From positions 1,790,576 to 1,854,575 of the forward strand of contig NZ_CP048877.1 in the NCBI RefSeq assembly GCF_011207455.1: a stretch of DNA of 64,000 bases, read 5' to 3'. The translations under genes were made by a program, and so were the position numbers. Below, one piece after another: positions 4,175-21,674 of this stretch. Origin of the DNA: Thermosulfuriphilus ammonigenes. Lineage in GTDB: Bacteria > Desulfobacterota > Thermodesulfobacteria > Thermodesulfobacteriales > ST65. Numbering within the stretch: the first letter of the stretch is position 1; every line of letters starts with the position of its first letter. The notes below the pieces were generated by a model. That model searched no databases. It was not told the DNA's origin and saw nothing but the letters and a program-made list of their open reading frames with translations.

Positions 4175-4660
4175 TTAAAAACTTCCTCTTCTCCTCATTT
4201 TCCAGGTCAGATTCAGCAAATTGTAGATAAAATACGTAAGAAACAAATGAATCTCGTTGATCATAAGCCTTACATACCTTGCCCTCTGAAGATGCAAAGA
4301 GAAGATACTGAATACCCGTTCCACCGTAGCTCTTATGCGCGAAAAGATCCGGTTCCGTTTCTTTTGCCTACCAGAGAGGGGCGGACCCCGACAGGCTTTG
4401 GCCAATATGCCACAAAATTTGCCCTCCTCACGGTACTTTTGCCTAATGTTGTCATAGGCTTTGTCTGCAAAGATGGTCTTCTCGTCTCCCTCAAGCAGCT
4501 CATCGAGGACCTGAGAGTCATGGACGTTGGCTGGCGTACAGACAAACTCGGACACAAAATCACTTTTGGGATCAATGGCAATATGATCTTTGTAGCCATA
4601 GACCACTTTACCTATGGTGGGCTTGGTAACAATATATTGAATCTTTTTAAACGAAGCTCA
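4175..4660 (-). pseudogene. IS5-family transposase, C-terminal remnant
   Basis: On the minus strand an open stretch encodes the back half of an IS5-type DDE transposase. It has a YGYKDHIAID start-like segment, a VHDSQVLDELL segment, ADKAYDN with the second catalytic Asp, and RIRATVERVF with the catalytic Glu. The frame is open upstream to an in-frame stop near 4662. The N-terminal third with the first catalytic Asp is missing, and no terminal inverted repeats were recognised. It is therefore a dead fragment. It sits between two polysaccharide genes and its GC content is above theirs, a trace of past insertion and rearrangement in the island. Confidence 0.8.
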
Positions 4661-4810: not shown

Positions 4811-5878
4811 ATGAGCGAATCAAAAGAAAAACCCTCTGAAATAAATGAAGAGGTTCTTGAGAGAGCTATCAGAAAGGTACATAAATTGATTTTATCAAAA
4901 ATCAAAAAGTTTGAGCATGAACTGAGTTTATTTAATGACCCCTATCAGAAATATAAAATCATACAGGAATCTAAAGATTTCCTTTCTAAAAAGCTAAGGC
5001 AAATTACAACAAAGATAGAACACAAATTTGATCATCTGGAAGAACTTGAAAGAGAGATAGTCAATACCTATATAAGAGATCTCCGGAAGATGCCCTCCAT
5101 TTTAAAAAGAAATATCCGGAAGATAGAAGATAAAAATTTCAGAAAGGCTTTAAGCAACCATCTTAAAGTTATAAAAGAGAAAGAGCTTCTTATAGCTATA
5201 GAGAGTGGCCTGATCTCCTGGGAGAAACTACTTGATACAAAATACCGTTTCGGGGAGGGAATGGATGAGAGAGTAATAGAAGTTCCACTTGCCATAGAGG
5301 TTGGCAGTTTTTCTCAGCCAGGAAAAGTCCTTGATGCAGGAGCAGCATTGAATGCGAAATACATCAGAGATTACATAGGCAGGCCTGAAGCATATATAGT
5401 TCATTTTACACAAAGTGCACAAAAAGAGGAGGTCATGCCTCTTGATGATAGAGTCTCATATATATTCGGTGATTTAAGAGACATGGATTTCAAGGATGAG
5501 GTGTTTGATAGGATTATCTGTATTTCAACCCTGGAACATATAGGAATGGATAATACAAGGTACGGAGGGCAGAAGGAAAATAATCCGAATTCGTATCTGA
5601 ATGCAGTCAGGGAGATGTTTCGTGTTCTTAAAAGAGGTGGACGTCTTTTATTCACCTTTCCTTATGGTAAGCCAATGAATTTTGGCTGGTATCGAATTTT
5701 TGGTCGTAGTGACATAGAGCATATTATTGAAATATGCAGTGGCTGTGAATTTAAAGAGAAATATTTTTATTACAATGGCTTTTGGTATGAAGCAACAGCA
5801 GCCCCTCCAGTTAATGGAACATATAATGACGAAGAGGATATTGAAGGTGTGGCTGCTATACTTATTATCAAAAATTAG
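4811..5878 (+). CDS. SAM-dependent methyltransferase with N-terminal helical region
   Basis: The first 150 or so of the 355 residues are rich in Lys and Glu and look like long helices or a coiled coil. The rest resembles a class I methyltransferase: a motif I-like VLDAGAALN (the usual second Gly region is altered), an acidic GDLRDMDF segment, then DRIICISTLEHIG and a post-motif VLKRGGRLLFTFPYG. It probably methylates a sugar or a chain end of the exported polysaccharide; this is inferred from its place directly before the ABC-2 permease. The helical N-terminus may be a ruler or docking element, as in chain-length-controlling methyltransferases, but nothing in the sequence proves that. Confidence 0.7.
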   Translation: MSESKEKPSEINEEVLERAIRKVHKLILSKIKKFEHELSLFNDPYQKYKIIQESKDFLSKKLRQITTKIEHKFDHLEELEREIVNTYIRDLRKMPSILKRNIRKIEDKNFRKALSNHLKVIKEKELLIAIESGLISWEKLLDTKYRFGEGMDERVIEVPLAIEVGSFSQPGKVLDAGAALNAKYIRDYIGRPEAYIVHFTQSAQKEEVMPLDDRVSYIFGDLRDMDFKDEVFDRIICISTLEHIGMDNTRYGGQKENNPNSYLNAVREMFRVLKRGGRLLFTFPYGKPMNFGWYRIFGRSDIEHIIEICSGCEFKEKYFYYNGFWYEATAAPPVNGTYNDEEDIEGVAAILIIKN

Positions 5879-6703: not shown

Positions 6704-8647
6704 ATGGGTAATTATAAAAACACAGATCTTAGAGATGTAATAATTTTTGACAATGTCTCCAAGTTCTATTCACTGGATATAAAAATAACCAAGCGACGCA
6801 CTTTTTACAGTATCCTTTTCGGGAAGAGAAGAGGCTGGGAACAGGGTGAAAAAGTACATTGTGTTCTTCATAATCTGTCTTTTTCGGTTAAGGAAGGAGA
6901 AAAACTCCTTATTCTTGGTCCCGCTGAGTCTGGTAAGTCAACAATTGCAAAGCTGATTTGTGGTCTGGCTTATCCAACTGAAGGTAAAATTGTTGTCAAA
7001 GGTAAAGTAAGATATGTAACATCAACTCCTATAGCTTCAAATCCTCTAATGACTCTTAAAGAGTACTCTCAGCTGCTTGCAATGATTTGTGGCGCTGATG
7101 GAAAACATTTGACAGAGCTTTGTGATGATATATTAAATTGCTGTAATCTTGGAGACCTGAAAGATACAAAGATCTATGATTTGCCAGGAAGAATACTTAA
7201 AGAAATGGTTTATTATACCATGATATCTATAGATGCGGATATTTATGTATTTGATAATACTTTAAGATTAGATCATTCCAGTTTTGGAGACCTTTGCTGG
7301 AACAAGATTCAGAATATTTTGAGAGAACGTACAGTTATAATTTTGAAGAAAAATATCCAACATTTAGATAAGCGTGTGATAAAATATTTGGATAAAGTTT
7401 TAATGCTTGAAGAGGGAAGAACAGTGTTTTTTGGTCCATATAAAAAGGCTTTTAATGCTGATTACTCTGTTGATAAGAGTGTAGAAAGAAAGGGTAATGT
7501 GGAACAATCCTCTTATCCTGCTTATCATAATGATGATAGTATTTCAGATAGCAGTGATCCACAAGGACGAACATCTTATCCTGCGTATCTTGTTATTAAC
7601 AGGATCTTAAAAGAATATAAAAAAATAAACAATGAAACCAGGGGGCAGGCTCCTTCTTTGGAGGAGTTATTGCATGTTAATTTAAGGAAAGAACTGGAGG
7701 AAGTAATAGATACATCTAAAACAATTGTTCTGGGTCCTTATATTTCGGATGTAGGTGTAGAGTTCACTTACTGGATTCCTTTTCTCAGATGGTTAATTCA
7801 TACCTATAAACTTGATAGCAGGCGTATTATCGCTATCTCAAGATGCGGTGCAAGGCTCTGGTATGAAGATTTAGGTGTTGAATATCTTGATTTATCGGAT
7901 TTAATCTCTGATACAGAACTTTCAGAATACTTCCGTAATATAACATCAGGATGGAACATGAAACAGTTTTATTTATCTGTTGGAGAAAAAGAAATTCTAA
8001 ATCGAGCTATAAAAAAATTGGGACTCTTTGATTATTGTTTGATTCATCCTGCTTTAATGTGGAATTTATTTTTACCTGTATGGAAGCGCTTTTTACCTCT
8101 GGATTTTATTTATGATTATACTATATACGAGCCCTTTAATCACGTGGACTGGAATAAAGAGGATCAATTCGATCTTCCCGAAAAGTATATTGTGGTTAAG
8201 TTCAGTTTTTTTCCTCATTTTCCACAGACGAAGGAAAATCTGTCTTTTTTAGATAAGCTTGTTAGAGAACTGGCTAAGAATTTTAATGTTGTAAGTTTGC
8301 ATACGGATATACTAGTTGACAGACATAGAGACTTTATTTGTGATACAAATGGTTTATATGAAATCAGGGATAAAGTGAACTACAAAAATATACTCGAAGT
8401 TCAAACTAAAATAATAAGAAATGCTGCTTTCTGTGTGGGAGTTCAGGGCAATATAATATCCTTTGCACCGTATATGAATGTAAAAACTCTAAGTATTTAT
8501 TCTCATAAGGAGGCCGGTACCTTTCCTATGACTTTAACGCTTTACGAATCACATCTTTCAAGGCTCTTTGAAGGTTCGTGTAATTCTTTAGATATAAGCA
8601 GGTCAGATGTTTCCGATGTGATTGATAGCATTAGTGAAGTCATGTAA
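6704..8647 (+). CDS. Degenerate ABC ATPase fused to a glycosyltransferase-like module
   Basis: Numbering is from the ATG at 6704 (647 residues); a TTG at 6671 would add 11 residues, and neither start has a strong ribosome binding site. Residues 1 to about 250 form an ABC nucleotide-binding domain of the KpsT/Wzt kind, with an intact Walker A (GPAESGKST, 72-80). The signature region reads DLPGRILKE where family members have an SSG/SGG motif. Walker B ends FDN, so the catalytic Glu is Asn185. The switch region reads IILKKN with no His at the usual place. A linker holds SYPAY twice (about 270 and 291). Residues from about 338 to the end form a module also present at the end of the protein at 10311. 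It should work with the permease just upstream; reduced ATPase activity is inference. Confidence 0.75.
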   Translation: MGNYKNTDLRDVIIFDNVSKFYSLDIKITKRRTFYSILFGKRRGWEQGEKVHCVLHNLSFSVKEGEKLLILGPAESGKSTIAKLICGLAYPTEGKIVVKGKVRYVTSTPIASNPLMTLKEYSQLLAMICGADGKHLTELCDDILNCCNLGDLKDTKIYDLPGRILKEMVYYTMISIDADIYVFDNTLRLDHSSFGDLCWNKIQNILRERTVIILKKNIQHLDKRVIKYLDKVLMLEEGRTVFFGPYKKAFNADYSVDKSVERKGNVEQSSYPAYHNDDSISDSSDPQGRTSYPAYLVINRILKEYKKINNETRGQAPSLEELLHVNLRKELEEVIDTSKTIVLGPYISDVGVEFTYWIPFLRWLIHTYKLDSRRIIAISRCGARLWYEDLGVEYLDLSDLISDTELSEYFRNITSGWNMKQFYLSVGEKEILNRAIKKLGLFDYCLIHPALMWNLFLPVWKRFLPLDFIYDYTIYEPFNHVDWNKEDQFDLPEKYIVVKFSFFPHFPQTKENLSFLDKLVRELAKNFNVVSLHTDILVDRHRDFICDTNGLYEIRDKVNYKNILEVQTKIIRNAAFCVGVQGNIISFAPYMNVKTLSIYSHKEAGTFPMTLTLYESHLSRLFEGSCNSLDISRSDVSDVIDSISEVM

Positions 8648-8919
8648 GATGTCAGGTAGCTGGATGTGAAGTATTGGGATTTGCTTTGGATCATGAGAGA
8701 TCATCAAGGACATATGTACACTCAGACAACGATTATAATGGCGGGATGGAACAAAATATTACAGCTTAGAGAAGCTTTTGTTGTGTAGCGCTTTCAGGCA
8801 GAAATGCTGAGGAATGCCAGAGGGAGAGTTGCATTCAGGAAGAGTTTATTCTAGAGTGAAAAACAGAAGAGCTAAACGAAGTTTATTTTGTTGATGTTTC
8901 TGTAGTAAGTGAAGAGGGT
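8648..8919 (+). other. 272-base gap, possible decayed coding DNA
   Basis: No intact gene is seen. A short open stretch from a GTG at 8666 reads about 40 codons to a TAG, and coding-like sequence continues briefly after that stop. GC content is a little higher than in the flanking genes. This could be the residue of a broken gene, but I recognise no family and no repeat. Confidence 0.3.
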
Positions 8920-9717: not shown

Positions 9718-10310
9718 GTGGTTTAAAGATTATCGGAAGAATTTTATGCAAGGTACTGAGGAAGGATATTGTGTCAGATATATGTGAAAATGGCAGTAGA
9801 GCCGGCTGAAGCTTAAGAGATCGGCCAGTACGATATCGAGGCATTCGGACACGGAGCGTCGAGGGTGAAACTTGCACGGAAGGTCATCTGGATAATTAAT
9901 GGAGGCACAAAGCCTTGCGGGAGAACTTTTGCAGAAGTTAATGCATCAAAGATGCACGATTAATAAGGTCGGAATATTCAGGGATATCTGGCAAAATGAT
10001 ACAGTAAGGACTGTCAGATCGAGAGTTTGTTTTCCATCATAAAGGAAGATGAGGTAAACATTAATCGGAATTGTAATAGTACAATATTCAGAGCTGTTCT
10101 TTCATCGTGTTTCTTTATAGTTCAAGTCAGTTAAGGGATATGCATTGATACTAAAGTGCATTTGATTGCTTTTATTAAAGTACATGAAAAAACGAGTCAG
10201 TAGATGAAGATGGTTGAAATCAGTTGGAAAAGGTATGAACTTGATGAGAGCCATTCTGATATTTTTATAAGAAGTTAACATTTTTCAGTAAAAGAGGAGG
10301 CTCATACTTT
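9718..10310 (+). other. 593-base intergenic region with a decayed open segment
   Basis: No complete gene is visible. One plus-strand frame is open for 48 codons, from the stop at 9814 to the TAA at 9961, and reads like real protein (GHGASRVKLARKVIWIING within it), but it has no start codon and I cannot name its family. The rest has stops in all frames. A clear ribosome binding site (gaggagg, about 10294) belongs to the next gene. The region is best read as remnants of one or more lost genes. Confidence 0.4.
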
Positions 10311-13025
10311 ATGAGAATACTTTTCATTATGTTACATCCTGGATATGTACGAAATTATGAGTCGGCAATTCGACTCCTTGCCGAAAGAGGGCATAAGATT
10401 CATGTATGTTTCTCCCAACCTAAAAAACAAGCAGAAGACAGACTCATCGAAAGACTTGCCGCGGAGAATAAAAACATCACCTATGATAAGAAGAAGATTC
10501 CCAAAAGGAATCTTCTGTGGAGATATCTTGCACAGGCAATTCGAGGTGGTCGGGATTATGTGAGATATTTTCATCCAAGATATGAAAATGCAACGAAGTT
10601 AAAGGAAAGAGTAGCCATTCGGTTTGGTGTTGTATTGCGACCTATAGCAAGTACAATACTAAGTTTTTTGGCTTCTCTCAAGGCAGTAAGGTTAATAGAT
10701 AAACTCCTTGTAATGCTGGAGACAGCACTGCCTAGTTGTAAGAGGATCGATGATTTTCTTAGGTCTAAAAATCCCGATATTCTTTTAGTAACACCAATTG
10801 TAAACATAGCCTCTGATCAGGTAGACTACGTTAAAAGCGCAAAATCACTTGGAATAAGATGTGTAGTATGTGTAGCAAGCTGGGATAATCTGACGAATAA
10901 AGGATTGATACGAGTGGAGCCAGATGCTGTAATTGTATGGAATGAGATCCAGAAACAAGAAGCTGTGGAGCTACATAACATTCCAGAGTCAAAAGTTGTA
11001 GTAACTGGTGCCCAGTGTTATGACAAGTGGTTTGATATGAAAGCAAGTACTACCAGAGAGGAATTCTGCCGTAAGGTTGGATTAATATCTGAACATTCAT
11101 ACATACTTTATGTATGCTCTTCTCCCTTTATTGCTCCAAATGAAGTGAAATTTGTTGAGACCTGGATAAAAAACATAAGATCATCAAAGGACCCGAACAT
11201 ATCAAATATTGGGATCCTTGTAAGACCTCATCCTCAGAATGCAAAACAATGGGAAGGAGTAGATTTTTCACATTATGGAAACGTCACCATTTATCCCCAG
11301 GGAGGTGCCAATCCGGTAGATGAGGAATCCAAAAGAGACTTCTATGAGTCTATTTTTCATAGTAAGGCTGTGGTTGGTATAAATACAAGTGCAATGATAG
11401 AAGCCGGAATTTTGAATAAGCCGGTCTTTACAATTCTGAATCCAGAATTTGAAGGAACCCAGCAGGGCACACTCCACTTCCATTATCTTGTTAAAGGAGG
11501 GCTACTTCATATTAGTAGAAGTTTTGATGAACATATACAGCAACTTGAATCAGTGATAAGCGGAGATGGTTCGTATATTAATAGAATCAGGAAATTTATT
11601 GAAATTTTCGTGAGACCTCATGGGCTTGATAAGCCATCAACACCGATTTTTGCTAATGCTATTGAAGAGATAATGAATTCACCTGCACCTCTCCCTTTAA
11701 AAACTCCTCTTTGGTGTTATTTAATGCGTCCTATTTTATTAGGGCTTGCTATTCTAGTTCTTTTATTTAAAAAGGATTTCAAGAAAAATTTGAAGCGATC
11801 TTTGACTAATAAAAAGAGAGTTATAAAAGATGCTTTGTTTAAAAAACCTTTGCCAAGAGTTATAAGATTTTTTCGTCCTATTTTTCTGCCTATTTTTAAG
11901 TCTTTTATAAAAAGACCGTTTGTAAGAGAATATATAATTCCCCGAATAATAGAAGAATATGCCAGTAGTAGTGCTAATAAGAGATTTATTTATACTAATA
12001 GTATTCTTAAGAAAATAAGAAGGATTTCAAAATCACCAAAGCCAATTATTGTTGGTCCCTGGCTATCAGAAGTAGGTTTTGAAATTCTCTATTGGATTCC
12101 CTTTTTAAACTGGGCATTTGAAAGATTTAATCTCGAAAAAGATCGAATAATTGTGATATCTCGGGGAGGAGTAGAGGCCTGGTATAATGGAATTTACAAA
12201 CATTATATAGACATCTTTGATTTCTTTGGAGAGGAAGATTTTAAAAATAAAAACCAAAGACGAATAGAGATTACAGGTGCTCAAAAGCATAATATTATAT
12301 CAGATTTTGATTATGAGATTCTAGAAATAGTAAAGTCTAAATTAAATATAACTGAGTTTGATTGGTTTCATCCTTCGCTTATGTACCAAATGTTCCAATC
12401 CTATTGGAGAAGAAAAGCCCCTATTTCTTTGATTGAGTCATATACGAATTATAAAAAGTTTAATCGTAATGTTATTAAAAACAATGATATTGACCTGCCT
12501 AACAAATATATCGCTGTTAAGTTCTATTTTAGCTCTTGCTTTCCTGATACTAAAGAAAATAGAATGATGATATCGCAATTGTTGAATTTTTTTTCTACTT
12601 ATATAGATATAGTATTGCTGGCTACCAATATTGATATAGATGATCATGTTGACTTTTCTCTTAATGCAAATGGTAGAATTCATTTGATTAAAGATAAAAT
12701 GACTTTAAGAAATAATCTGGAAATACAAACTAAAGTTATTGCTAATTCTTTAGCTTTCTTTGGCACTTATGGAGGGTTTTCGTATTTGGCTCCTTTTTAT
12801 GGAGTACCTTCTGTGGCTTTTTATTCGAATGAAGAGAACTTTTTACCAGTCCATTTAGATGTAGCATATAGGGCCTTTCGTTACTTAAAATTTGGTTCTT
12901 TTGATAAGGTTCGAAAAAACAACTTCTTCTATCATACTCATGATAGAAAAGAAAAATATGAATTTTTGCCTATAAATATTAAAACTTTAGATCTTTTAAA
13001 AATTTTCAAAAATAAAGTGAGGTGA
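10311..13025 (+). CDS. Two-module glycosyltransferase-like protein, 904 residues
   Basis: The N-terminal 460 residues look like a GT-B glycosyltransferase or capsule enzyme: MRILFIMLHPGYVRNYESAIRLL at the start, then VASWDNLTNKG, LVRPHPQN and the donor-site-like INTSAMIEAGILNKPVF. A hydrophobic segment follows at about 470-486 and then a basic linker. Residues from about 575 to 850 form a second module (GPWLSEVGFEILYWIPFL, HPSLMYQMF, FGTYGGFSYLAPF) that is clearly related to the C-terminal module of the ABC-ATPase fusion at 6704. Codon use changes near 11690: the first half resembles genes 4811-9717, while the second half is as AT-rich as the genes downstream. It may be a recent in-frame fusion. 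A strong ribosome binding site precedes the ATG. Confidence 0.65.
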   Translation: MRILFIMLHPGYVRNYESAIRLLAERGHKIHVCFSQPKKQAEDRLIERLAAENKNITYDKKKIPKRNLLWRYLAQAIRGGRDYVRYFHPRYENATKLKERVAIRFGVVLRPIASTILSFLASLKAVRLIDKLLVMLETALPSCKRIDDFLRSKNPDILLVTPIVNIASDQVDYVKSAKSLGIRCVVCVASWDNLTNKGLIRVEPDAVIVWNEIQKQEAVELHNIPESKVVVTGAQCYDKWFDMKASTTREEFCRKVGLISEHSYILYVCSSPFIAPNEVKFVETWIKNIRSSKDPNISNIGILVRPHPQNAKQWEGVDFSHYGNVTIYPQGGANPVDEESKRDFYESIFHSKAVVGINTSAMIEAGILNKPVFTILNPEFEGTQQGTLHFHYLVKGGLLHISRSFDEHIQQLESVISGDGSYINRIRKFIEIFVRPHGLDKPSTPIFANAIEEIMNSPAPLPLKTPLWCYLMRPILLGLAILVLLFKKDFKKNLKRSLTNKKRVIKDALFKKPLPRVIRFFRPIFLPIFKSFIKRPFVREYIIPRIIEEYASSSANKRFIYTNSILKKIRRISKSPKPIIVGPWLSEVGFEILYWIPFLNWAFERFNLEKDRIIVISRGGVEAWYNGIYKHYIDIFDFFGEEDFKNKNQRRIEITGAQKHNIISDFDYEILEIVKSKLNITEFDWFHPSLMYQMFQSYWRRKAPISLIESYTNYKKFNRNVIKNNDIDLPNKYIAVKFYFSSCFPDTKENRMMISQLLNFFSTYIDIVLLATNIDIDDHVDFSLNANGRIHLIKDKMTLRNNLEIQTKVIANSLAFFGTYGGFSYLAPFYGVPSVAFYSNEENFLPVHLDVAYRAFRYLKFGSFDKVRKNNFFYHTHDRKEKYEFLPINIKTLDLLKIFKNKVR

Positions 13026-13030
13026 AAAGG

Positions 13031-14149
13031 ATGATAGTAAACTATGATGATCTGGTTAAATATCAGAGGAAATGTGTGATGGTTGATGGTTGTTTCGATC
13101 CTTTGCATATTGGGCATTTAAAATATTTTGATGTGGCTTCTACTTTAGGTTTTCCTCTTTTTTGTAATGTTCAGTCAGACGATTATATTTCTAATAATAA
13201 AAAAAGACCTAATCTCTTGCCAGAACTTCAAAGAATCAATCTTATTGATTCTTTGAAAACAATTTCTTATGTCCATTTGTGTAAAACTTCTACTTCTGAT
13301 GTTCTTTCAAAATTACAGCCCTTAAAATACGTTAAGGGAATGGATTGGAAGAAAAAGGGTTTACCTAATGATGAGCAAGAAGTATGTAAAAAGTATGGAA
13401 TAGAAATTTTATTTTTAGATACTAATGTAGATAGTTCTACTAATATTGTTAGAGATTTTATAAGAAACAAAGATTGTAATTCTCTAAAAGAGTTTGAAGG
13501 TATATTATTTTCGCAAAAGGAAATTGAGCCCCATTACTATGATGAGCACTATTTCCGTGGTGATTGGAGAAATGGCCAAAATGATTATTCACTTGAGACA
13601 AGAAGAATAATTGAAGCCAAGAATCCCGTAAATATAAAAGAAGTTTTTCGGCCCAAACGTGTTTTAGATGTTGGCTGTGGTCCTGGGGCATTAATGTATT
13701 TTCTATATGAATTAGGTATAGAAACATATGGAATAGATTTCAGTCAAGCTGCCAAAGACTTGGCTCCAAAAGAAGTGCGTTCTAATATTGTTGTAGCTCC
13801 TGTGACTGAATATTATAATTTCGGAATCGATTTTGATCTTGTTATTTGTCGTGAGTTGTTAGAACATTTGACAATTTTGCAGATTAGGCAAGCTGTTAAG
13901 GTTTTAGCTGATTATACCTCCAAATACTTATATGTTACTACTAGGTTCCATCCATCTCCAGTTTCTCTTTTAGATGTAACAGATGATAGAGTGACTGATC
14001 CTACTCATATAACTTTGCTGAATAAAGACTTTCTTAAGTTATTGTTTATGTTAGAAGGGCTTAGACCACGTCCAGATTTAGAGGAGAAAATGGATTGGAA
14101 AAAATTGGGTAGAGTTTTGGTTTTTGAGAGGGTTTATAAAAATGTATAA
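13031..14149 (+). CDS. Fused nucleotidyltransferase and methyltransferase
   Basis: Residues 1 to about 145 are a cytidylyltransferase-like domain of the TagD/RfaE C-terminal type, with GCFDPLHIGH and DSSTNIVRDF. These enzymes load CMP (or AMP) onto glycerol-phosphate, phospho-amino-alcohols or heptose-phosphate. Residues from about 200 onward are a class I methyltransferase: VLDVGCGPGALMYFL, then YGIDFS, then DLVICRELLEHL. The two domains in one chain suggest activation and methylation of one small building block, for example a phosphoryl substituent; this is inference. The ATG at 13031 is preferred over the GTG at 13022 because gaggtg lies just before it; it follows the previous stop by 5 bases. 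Confidence 0.75.
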   Translation: MIVNYDDLVKYQRKCVMVDGCFDPLHIGHLKYFDVASTLGFPLFCNVQSDDYISNNKKRPNLLPELQRINLIDSLKTISYVHLCKTSTSDVLSKLQPLKYVKGMDWKKKGLPNDEQEVCKKYGIEILFLDTNVDSSTNIVRDFIRNKDCNSLKEFEGILFSQKEIEPHYYDEHYFRGDWRNGQNDYSLETRRIIEAKNPVNIKEVFRPKRVLDVGCGPGALMYFLYELGIETYGIDFSQAAKDLAPKEVRSNIVVAPVTEYYNFGIDFDLVICRELLEHLTILQIRQAVKVLADYTSKYLYVTTRFHPSPVSLLDVTDDRVTDPTHITLLNKDFLKLLFMLEGLRPRPDLEEKMDWKKLGRVLVFERVYKNV

Positions 14150-15065
14150 ATATTTAGTGAGCTCTCATCTTAATCCAAGTTTATCTGGAGTTGCAAAATT
14201 TAATCAAATTCTTGCTATGAAGTTAGATGTTCCTTGCTTGAGTGTTTTTGATATTCAAAGTATTGATAAAGGACCTATTCTTTTTTCTTTAAAGGTTCGT
14301 GATTTAAATGATTCAGAATGCCTTCTTCTCTCTAAATATTTAAATTTTCTTGTTGCTAAAAATATTGAATATGATCTTTTCTTTCATACATTTGATGGAT
14401 TGGATTTGGAATATGAACTTTTGAAATATTCTCGAATAATATATTCTGGAAATTTAGAAATTTATTCTGCTCTTAAAGGAATTAACAAAAAAATAATATC
14501 TGCCTGGTGCCCAGCTCTTATAACTGGTGATCATATTGTACGAGAAACTTCTCTTAATCTTTTTTCGTTTGGTATGGCCCATAAATTACAACTAAAGTAC
14601 TATAAAATTCTTCAAAATTTTTTAGAAAATTATAATATTGATTATGTACTATGGGTTTCCACAGCTTTTCATGAGAAAGCAAATTTTGGTGATTTTGATT
14701 CTGTAAGTAATCAATTGTCTAAAATATTTGGTTTTCGTATTCAATTTTTAGGATTTCTTTCTGATGATGCTATTAATTATTTCCTTGATAAAACTCAACT
14801 ATTTGTTGCCTTTTTTGAAAAAGGTGTTAGAGCAAATAATACAAGTATTTTTGCTGCAATGAATAGAGGATGTGCTATTATTACCAATATTGATGAATAT
14901 TCACCTTCTTGGATTAAACATAGTGTGAATGTTCTTGATATTCGTCTACTTAAACCTGAAAATTTGAAATTAGATTTTTTAAAAAAAATTGGTTTGCAGG
15001 CTAAAAACGATGTTCAGAGATATGCAAGTTGGGATAAATTAATAGAACTTTTTTCTGTGATTTAA
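14142..15065 (+). CDS. Glycosyltransferase-like protein
   Basis: This 307-residue protein has the look of a GT-B enzyme that lacks much of the usual N-terminal domain. A C-terminal segment (LFVAFFEKGVRANNTSIFAA followed by MNRGCAIITN) resembles the donor-sugar site of retaining glycosyltransferases, but the canonical EX7E pattern is replaced by KGVRANNTS. Start at ATG 14142 is chosen because gagaggg lies about 9 bases upstream; a TTG at 14124 would add six residues. It overlaps the end of the nucleotidyltransferase fusion by 8 bases and so is probably translationally coupled to it. The substrate is unknown. Confidence 0.55.
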   Translation: MYKYLVSSHLNPSLSGVAKFNQILAMKLDVPCLSVFDIQSIDKGPILFSLKVRDLNDSECLLLSKYLNFLVAKNIEYDLFFHTFDGLDLEYELLKYSRIIYSGNLEIYSALKGINKKIISAWCPALITGDHIVRETSLNLFSFGMAHKLQLKYYKILQNFLENYNIDYVLWVSTAFHEKANFGDFDSVSNQLSKIFGFRIQFLGFLSDDAINYFLDKTQLFVAFFEKGVRANNTSIFAAMNRGCAIITNIDEYSPSWIKHSVNVLDIRLLKPENLKLDFLKKIGLQAKNDVQRYASWDKLIELFSVI

Positions 15066-20612: not shown

Positions 20613-21674
20613 TCAATCTAAGGCATACCTTACCATCGGAGCACGAAAGTAACTCCTCACTATCTCCGGCTGCCTCTGCGTGCTCATAAGATAGCTGCGT
20701 ACATTACCCTCCATCTCCTCCATGCTCCGCTTCCGGCGCCTCCCCACCGCATTCGTCTTCACATCCTGGTTCAAATACTCATCCGGATTAAGCTCCGGAC
20801 TGTATCTCGGCAAATAATGCAGTTCCAACTCGTCCTCTTTGCCCTTCAACCACTCCTTAATCCTCTTTGCCCGATGCACACGGTGATTATCCACTATAAG
20901 ATAAATCTTCCGCCCCTTTTCTCGTGATCTTATCAGCCTTCTTAAAAATTCAAGAAAAACTTCTGTCGTAAATCTCTCCCTAAAAATCATAAACTTAAGC
21001 TTCCCCCGGTTGTTGATGGCAGAAATCATATTGAATCGAAATCTCTTGCCGCTCACCTCCACCACCGGTGTCTCTCCCCTCGGCGCCCAACTCCTCCCCG
21101 CTTGATGATCTGACCTGATCCCTGTCTCATCTCCCCACCAAATCTCTGCCCCTTCCTCCTTGGCCCTCTTCCTTATCCGGGGATACTCCTTCTCAAGCCA
21201 GGCCTTTACTTCCTTCGGATTTCTTTCATAGGCCCGTTTCAAAGGCTTCTGCGGCGTGAAATTCCATCGCCTCAAATACCGGCCCACCGTCCATATCGAA
21301 AGCCTTATCCCAAACTTCCTCTCTATCAGTTGCCCCACCGCCTCCCTGGTCCAAAGGGAAAAGGGAAGCTTCAACTGATCAGGACAACGGTCCCGGATGA
21401 TGCTACAAATGGTAGCTGCTTGCCAGCCCAAAAGTTTTCCTCCCTTAGGACGTCCGCGAGGCTTGATTTTAAGGGCTTCCTCCCCACCTTGGCGATAAAG
21501 TTTTAGCCAGTAAGTCACAGTGGTTCTGGCTATTCCCAACATTTGGGCCACTTCTTCCTGGGTTTTTCCTTGTTCCAACACGGCGTGGACGGCTCTAAAA
21601 CGCAAAGCTTCTTGAGCTTTGGGAGGAAGTTTACGTGCGTCTATTTTGGGAACTTTTGGAGGGCTAGAGTCCAT
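20613..21674 (-). CDS. IS630-family transposase
   Basis: This 353-residue protein has an N-terminal helix-turn-helix region (KTQEEVAQMLGIARTTVTYWLKLYRQGG) and a second DNA-binding part, then a DDE catalytic domain. Its acidic residues lie in WGDETGI, in YLIVDNHRVH, and in YLPRYSPELNPDEYLN; the last is the typical IS630/Tc1 ending. No frameshift or internal stop is present and the terminal repeats are recognisable, so the element may still be mobile. It is a single-ORF element without passenger genes. Confidence 0.95.
   Translation of the reverse strand: MDSSPPKVPKIDARKLPPKAQEALRFRAVHAVLEQGKTQEEVAQMLGIARTTVTYWLKLYRQGGEEALKIKPRGRPKGGKLLGWQAATICSIIRDRCPDQLKLPFSLWTREAVGQLIERKFGIRLSIWTVGRYLRRWNFTPQKPLKRAYERNPKEVKAWLEKEYPRIRKRAKEEGAEIWWGDETGIRSDHQAGRSWAPRGETPVVEVSGKRFRFNMISAINNRGKLKFMIFRERFTTEVFLEFLRRLIRSREKGRKIYLIVDNHRVHRAKRIKEWLKGKEDELELHYLPRYSPELNPDEYLNQDVKTNAVGRRRKRSMEEMEGNVRSYLMSTQRQPEIVRSYFRAPMVRYALD

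Follow-up and report, generated by a model that had tools for sequence, protein, structure and literature searches.

A predicted fusion of a degenerate Wzt/TagH-like ATPase subunit and a GT-B-like module next to an intact ABC-2 permease

Known ABC glycan exporters and the layout of the locus

ABC exporters of glycans are thought to require ATP hydrolysis by a Wzt/KpsT subunit, which is a homodimer in the Wzm/KpsM systems. The signature serine of the Wzt-type nucleotide-binding domain (NBD) contacts the gamma-phosphate of ATP (PMC6379404), and the exchange of the Walker B glutamate in KpsT (E151Q, Glu to Gln) is sufficient to abolish capsule secretion (PMC11041684). Heterodimeric ABC exporters with mixed canonical and degenerate sites are also known (PMC5216877, PMC7544095).

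The gene described here is located in a 64,000-nucleotide stretch of the Thermosulfuriphilus ammonigenes genome (the window) and starts 16 bp downstream of an ABC-2 permease gene (Table 1). The locus shares with Wzm/Wzt, KpsM/KpsT, TarG/TarH, and TagG/TagH the order of the gene pair, an ABC-2 permease with the Wzm residues, the NBD fold, the gate-helix extension, Walker A, and the A-loop. In contrast to these systems, the signature, the catalytic Glu, and the D-loop are lost, and the C-terminus is a predicted GT-B module instead of a carbohydrate-binding or SH3-like domain. An NBD followed by a C-terminal glycan-related extension is also found in Wzt proteins with a carbohydrate-binding domain (Aquifex aeolicus, K. 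pneumoniae O12), but the extension is a beta-sandwich there, whereas a GT-B fold of 330 amino acids is predicted for the fusion protein. Longer Wzt-type proteins (L050-L052) possess a canonical NBD, unlike the fusion protein. Losses of the catalytic Glu and the signature similar to those reported here occur in TM287/288, ABCB11, MRP1, and CFTR. These proteins pair one degenerate with one canonical site, whereas a homodimer of the fusion protein would have two degenerate nucleotide sites. A fusion of an NBD and a glycosyltransferase was not found described in the literature searched.

The permease shows a weak match to the galactan Wzm family NF050109 (1.8e-4). It retains G-x-x-W, Pro, and Asp, corresponding to the LG-loop Gly, Trp27, Pro32, and Asp167 of Wzm, while Leu23 is replaced by Phe (reference: PMC6379404). 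Homologues of the permease are encoded in four genomes of the same order, and the copies in three of them (G025, G018, and G022) adjoin canonical KpsT-like genes. The genes upstream encode NeuB, a short-chain dehydrogenase, an aldehyde dehydrogenase, transketolase domains, a NeuA-type cytidylyltransferase, a capsule-synthesis-like protein, and the helical methyltransferase protein at 4811-5878, which is a possible chain terminator by analogy to WbdD. Downstream, an NKWYS protein, several glycosyltransferases, an initiating sugar transferase, and an enzyme resembling GDP-mannose dehydratases, identified solely by inspection, are encoded. A broken IS5-like transposase remnant, also named by inspection, is located within the glycan cluster (4175-4606, minus strand). 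Each of the two surface-glycan regions of the genome has a transposase of 353 amino acids next to it, apparently the same one in both cases (20613-21674, minus strand, and L122:5304-6365). The stretches 8648-8919 and 9718-10310 between the cluster genes contain no open frames and are perhaps degraded genes.

Table 1. Features of the fusion gene and its neighbors (window coordinates)
Feature	Position	Strand	Basis
Protein with long helical N-terminus and methyltransferase domain, directly upstream of the permease	4811..5878	+	PF08241, 1.8e-8
ABC-2 polysaccharide permease, Wzm/KpsM-like, 264 aa	5893..6687	+	NF050109, homologues, key residues
Whole fusion gene, intact ORF, 647 aa	6704..8647	+	ORF and translation
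Predicted degenerate TagH/Wzt-type NBD, residues 12-245	6737..7438	+	PF00005, TarH match, AF2/Foldseek
Gate-helix region, positively charged, KITKRRTFYSILFGKRR	6776..6844	+	Position equals Wzt beta1-beta2 extension (PMC6379404)
Walker A GPAESGKST, intact, residues 72-80	6917..6943	+	Sequence, alignment
Signature region DLPGRILKE replacing YSSGMxxRL, from residue 159	7178..7204	+	Alignment
Walker B IYVFDN, near residues 180-184, catalytic Glu to Asn (AAT)	7241..7258	+	Alignment
Switch region IILKKNIQH, His position occupied by either N217 or H220	7337..7363	+	Alignment, profile
Linker with repeated S/T-S-Y-P-A-Y peptide	7497..7610	+	Sequence
Predicted GT-B-like module, residues 321-647	7664..8644	+	AF2, Foldseek, paralogue identity
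VGVQGN replacing the GTYGG loop of the module family	8435..8452	+	Family alignment
Glycosyltransferase, 904 aa, BFO_1060-like N-terminal half; C-terminal half is the same GT-B module with conserved motifs kept	10311..13025	+	

The two halves of the fusion protein

The first-pass annotation described an ABC export ATPase that had lost catalytic motifs and gained a glycosyltransferase-like module; its coordinates, frame, and quoted motifs were all confirmed. The N-terminal half matches PF00005 (5.4e-12) and TarH (6jbh, 4.7e-19) and reaches 121 bits with the KpsT/Wzt family profile. Its AF2 model (pLDDT 81), with TagH, TarGH, and WzmWzt as top Foldseek matches, still superposes on TagH/Wzt. Judged by homology and predicted structure, this half is an NBD of the TagH/Wzt/KpsT type. 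A match to mad8 of PADLOC (3.6e-5) was dismissed because it covered the P-loop region alone.

As stated in the first-pass annotation, Walker A is intact, and the A-loop residue Tyr22 is retained as well. The gate-helix region was modeled with a low pLDDT of 27-48. The remaining motifs were compared with 33 KpsT/Wzt homologues of the same phylum, four of them from the same order, in all of which the signature, Glu, and His are canonical. The alignment bore out the proposed loss of the signature (Y-S-S/T-G-M-x-x-R/K-L in the family, LPGRILKEM here) and the exchange of the Walker B Glu, which is present in 33 out of 33 homologues. The D-loop VGD is changed to LDH. The description of the switch region held for the presence of IILKKN at residue 212, but less so for the loss of the His: an ungapped count from Walker B places N217 at the switch-His position, whereas the homologue profile aligns H220 there after a three-residue insert (KKN), with low confidence. 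Overall, of the 51 NBD positions that at least 90% of the homologues share, 32 are changed in the fusion protein (63%), compared to four at most in any homologue, a divergence that, by this alignment, is far beyond chance. ATP binding without normal hydrolysis, as the first-pass annotation had it, is what would be expected from these motif losses (cf. KpsT E151Q; PMC11041684). The protein is assigned to the Wzm/Wzt kind by homology and, judging from the alignment, not as a working member, because both the signature and the catalytic Glu are replaced.

The C-terminal half is, according to structure prediction, a glycosyltransferase fold of the GT-B type. The AF2 model of the module family (pLDDT 80.7, pTM 0.82) displays alternating helices and strands and, together with Foldseek, indicates two Rossmann-like domains. 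The Foldseek search with this model retrieved GT9 heptosyltransferases and TibC (probability 1.0, E about 1e-4, TM-scores about 0.4). This is in accordance with the glycosyltransferase-like character proposed for this half, and the GT-B model rules out the beta-sandwich carbohydrate-binding domain of Wzt, as had also been proposed. The quoted motifs were located at residues 344 (GPYISDVGVE) and 356 (YWIPFL). The module resembles GT9/TibC-like GT-B enzymes in its predicted fold, but its motifs are different and no sequence match was obtained: searches against Pfam gave no match below 0.1, and those against PDB sequences, NCBIfam, PHROGs, and plasmid and phage records gave none, so that the module has no sequence membership in GT9 or any other named family. 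Between the two halves, the linker carries the near-repeated peptide SYPAY at 7511-7525 and 7573-7587, possibly a fusion scar.

The module is 36% identical (E 6e-53) to the C-terminal third of the 10311-13025 protein (12000-13022). In the module family alignment, the rows of which are mostly viral contigs, so that a clade bias is possible, 23 out of 60 conserved positions are changed in the fusion copy; the in-cluster paralogue, with 4 out of 58, argues against such a bias. The most conserved C-terminal loop of the family, GTYGG-YL-P, reads GVQGN-SF-P in the fusion copy and is probably the donor-binding loop. By alignment, the NBD and the module thus appear to have each lost probable active-site positions. 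When the two halves were aligned jointly, NBD rows fell on the module, and this alignment was set aside for that reason.

Proposed role and competing explanations

The sequence features suggest that the fusion protein probably holds or couples machinery rather than driving export. We tentatively favor, with a confidence somewhat short of even, a double pseudo-enzyme that acts as a docking scaffold on the permease, composed of a non-hydrolyzing or poorly hydrolyzing, ATP-binding Wzt/TagH-like subunit and a degenerate GT-B module. A Wzt/TagH-like ATPase subunit would have turned into an ATP-binding subunit with no or very poor hydrolysis, joined to a GT-B module in which conserved positions have been lost as well. 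The protein would dimerize on the Wzm-like permease via its NBD and gate-helix region, and the dimer would provide a membrane docking platform for the lipid-linked glycan and the glycosyltransferases of the cluster, the latter perhaps recruited by module-module contact with the 10311-13025 enzyme. ATP binding would be a switch at most, not a power stroke, and the GT-B fold, inactive or weak, would serve as an interaction module. The retention of Walker A, Tyr22, and the charged gate region next to a replaced signature, Glu, and D-loop is consistent with such a scaffold, as are the intact permease features and the lack of a canonical partner ATPase in the complete genome. The first-pass annotation proposed that the protein may be a scaffold coupling chain modification or synthesis to the permease; such coupling by an active enzyme is doubtful in view of the 23 conserved family positions changed in the module. 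A further-reaching version, in which this double pseudo-enzyme, a non-hydrolyzing NBD with an inactive glycosyltransferase fold, is the sole ATPase subunit and forms an ATP-gated docking platform, and the permease translocates without conventional hydrolysis, is rather unlikely.

Alternatively, the ABC export of the cluster might be inactivated and in early decay, with the glycan no longer exported by this route. The loss of conserved motifs in both halves, the transposase remnant and degraded stretches in the cluster, and a separate Wzx/Wzy-type cluster with a Wzx flippase beside other surface-sugar genes at 2.06 Mb are in line with this explanation. However, the 647-codon frame is fully open, the permease and all neighboring enzymes are intact, and Walker A and the fold are preserved. 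When the fusion ORF was mutated neutrally in 200 simulated runs scored for stops, none (0/200) was stop-free at a protein divergence of at least 10%, so the 63% of changed NBD positions without stops exceed neutral drift, and the motif changes arose while selection held the frame. Selection on the frame is therefore apparent and may have been relaxed in recent times. Inactivation is considered somewhat unlikely for these reasons.

The exporter might also be powered by another ABC ATPase, either as a heterodimer partner or as one shared between permeases. The first-pass annotation suggested a second, active ATPase elsewhere, but none of the KpsT/Wzt family was detected when the canonical KpsT/Wzt profile was run over the complete, single-contig genome: the best match was the fusion protein itself, and the remainder were generic ABC ATPases. 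Because the complete genome lacks a canonical KpsT/Wzt gene, a decaying duplicate beside a normal gene, which the first-pass annotation had named as contrary evidence, is ruled out. The Wzm-like permease is intact, the genome encodes many ABC ATPases, one of which lies, together with an ABC-2 permease, upstream of the window at a distance of about 8 kb, and the mixed sites of heterodimeric ABC exporters provide a precedent. Nevertheless, a borrowed ATPase is improbable, since the next-best ATPases score like any ABC protein, the nearest is associated with its own permease, and the ATPase subunit of Wzm/KpsM systems is a homodimer.

It is similarly improbable that the module is an active glycosyltransferase for which the ATPase half is merely the membrane anchor. 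The predicted GT-B fold, the stand-alone relatives in phage sugar cassettes, and the retained positions GP-S-[DE]-VG-E, YWIPF, SR-G-WY, K, HP-M, D-H, and Q would fit an enzyme, but the altered GTYGG loop and the far higher number of changes than in the paralogue argue against it. That the exporter functions with a non-canonical catalytic site is very unlikely, although Walker A is kept, H220 is possibly the switch His, and no other ATPase was found for the permease, because both the signature Ser that contacts the gamma-phosphate and the catalytic Glu are gone (PMC6379404, PMC11041684).

An intact, apparently selected gene that has given up the chemistry of hydrolysis, next to an intact permease and without a replacement from its family in the genome, is a directly testable case. 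It raises the question of whether such permeases run, are gated, or are only scaffolded without hydrolysis.

Relatives of the module on viral contigs

The fusion of NBD and module was seen in one genome. The profile search for the module covered one phylum, and neither the module in other genomes nor a recurrence of the fusion, which the first-pass annotation had raised, was found among the 395 genomes sampled from it or in three class-level searches of 141 genomes in all. Two weak matches in the phylum were rejected: L036 is a GT9-like protein of the ordinary kind, and L037 is an oxidoreductase matched by chance. One scan of genome contigs with the single sequence yielded generic ABC proteins and no others.

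Using an alignment of the fusion module and the 10311-13025 module, relatives were identified on viral contigs, where they are stand-alone genes of about 330 residues located in sugar cassettes of phages. Genes for a phage terminase or portal protein are present on two of these contigs. One phage contig with a terminase gene (L043:523-5921, identical to L077) was compared with 1569-2273 and 13022-15065 of the window and with L012:15662-16708. It encodes NeuB, NeuA, a nucleotidyltransferase-methyltransferase, a relative of the 14124-15065 protein, and the GT-B module. The presence of these five cluster parts on a single contig suggests a sugar-building cassette common to phages and bacterial surface-glycan clusters. 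The GT-B family of the module, previously unnamed, occurs in both. The protein encoded at 13022-14149 is an RfaE-type nucleotidyltransferase fused to a methyltransferase, and its phage relative consists of two overlapping frames.
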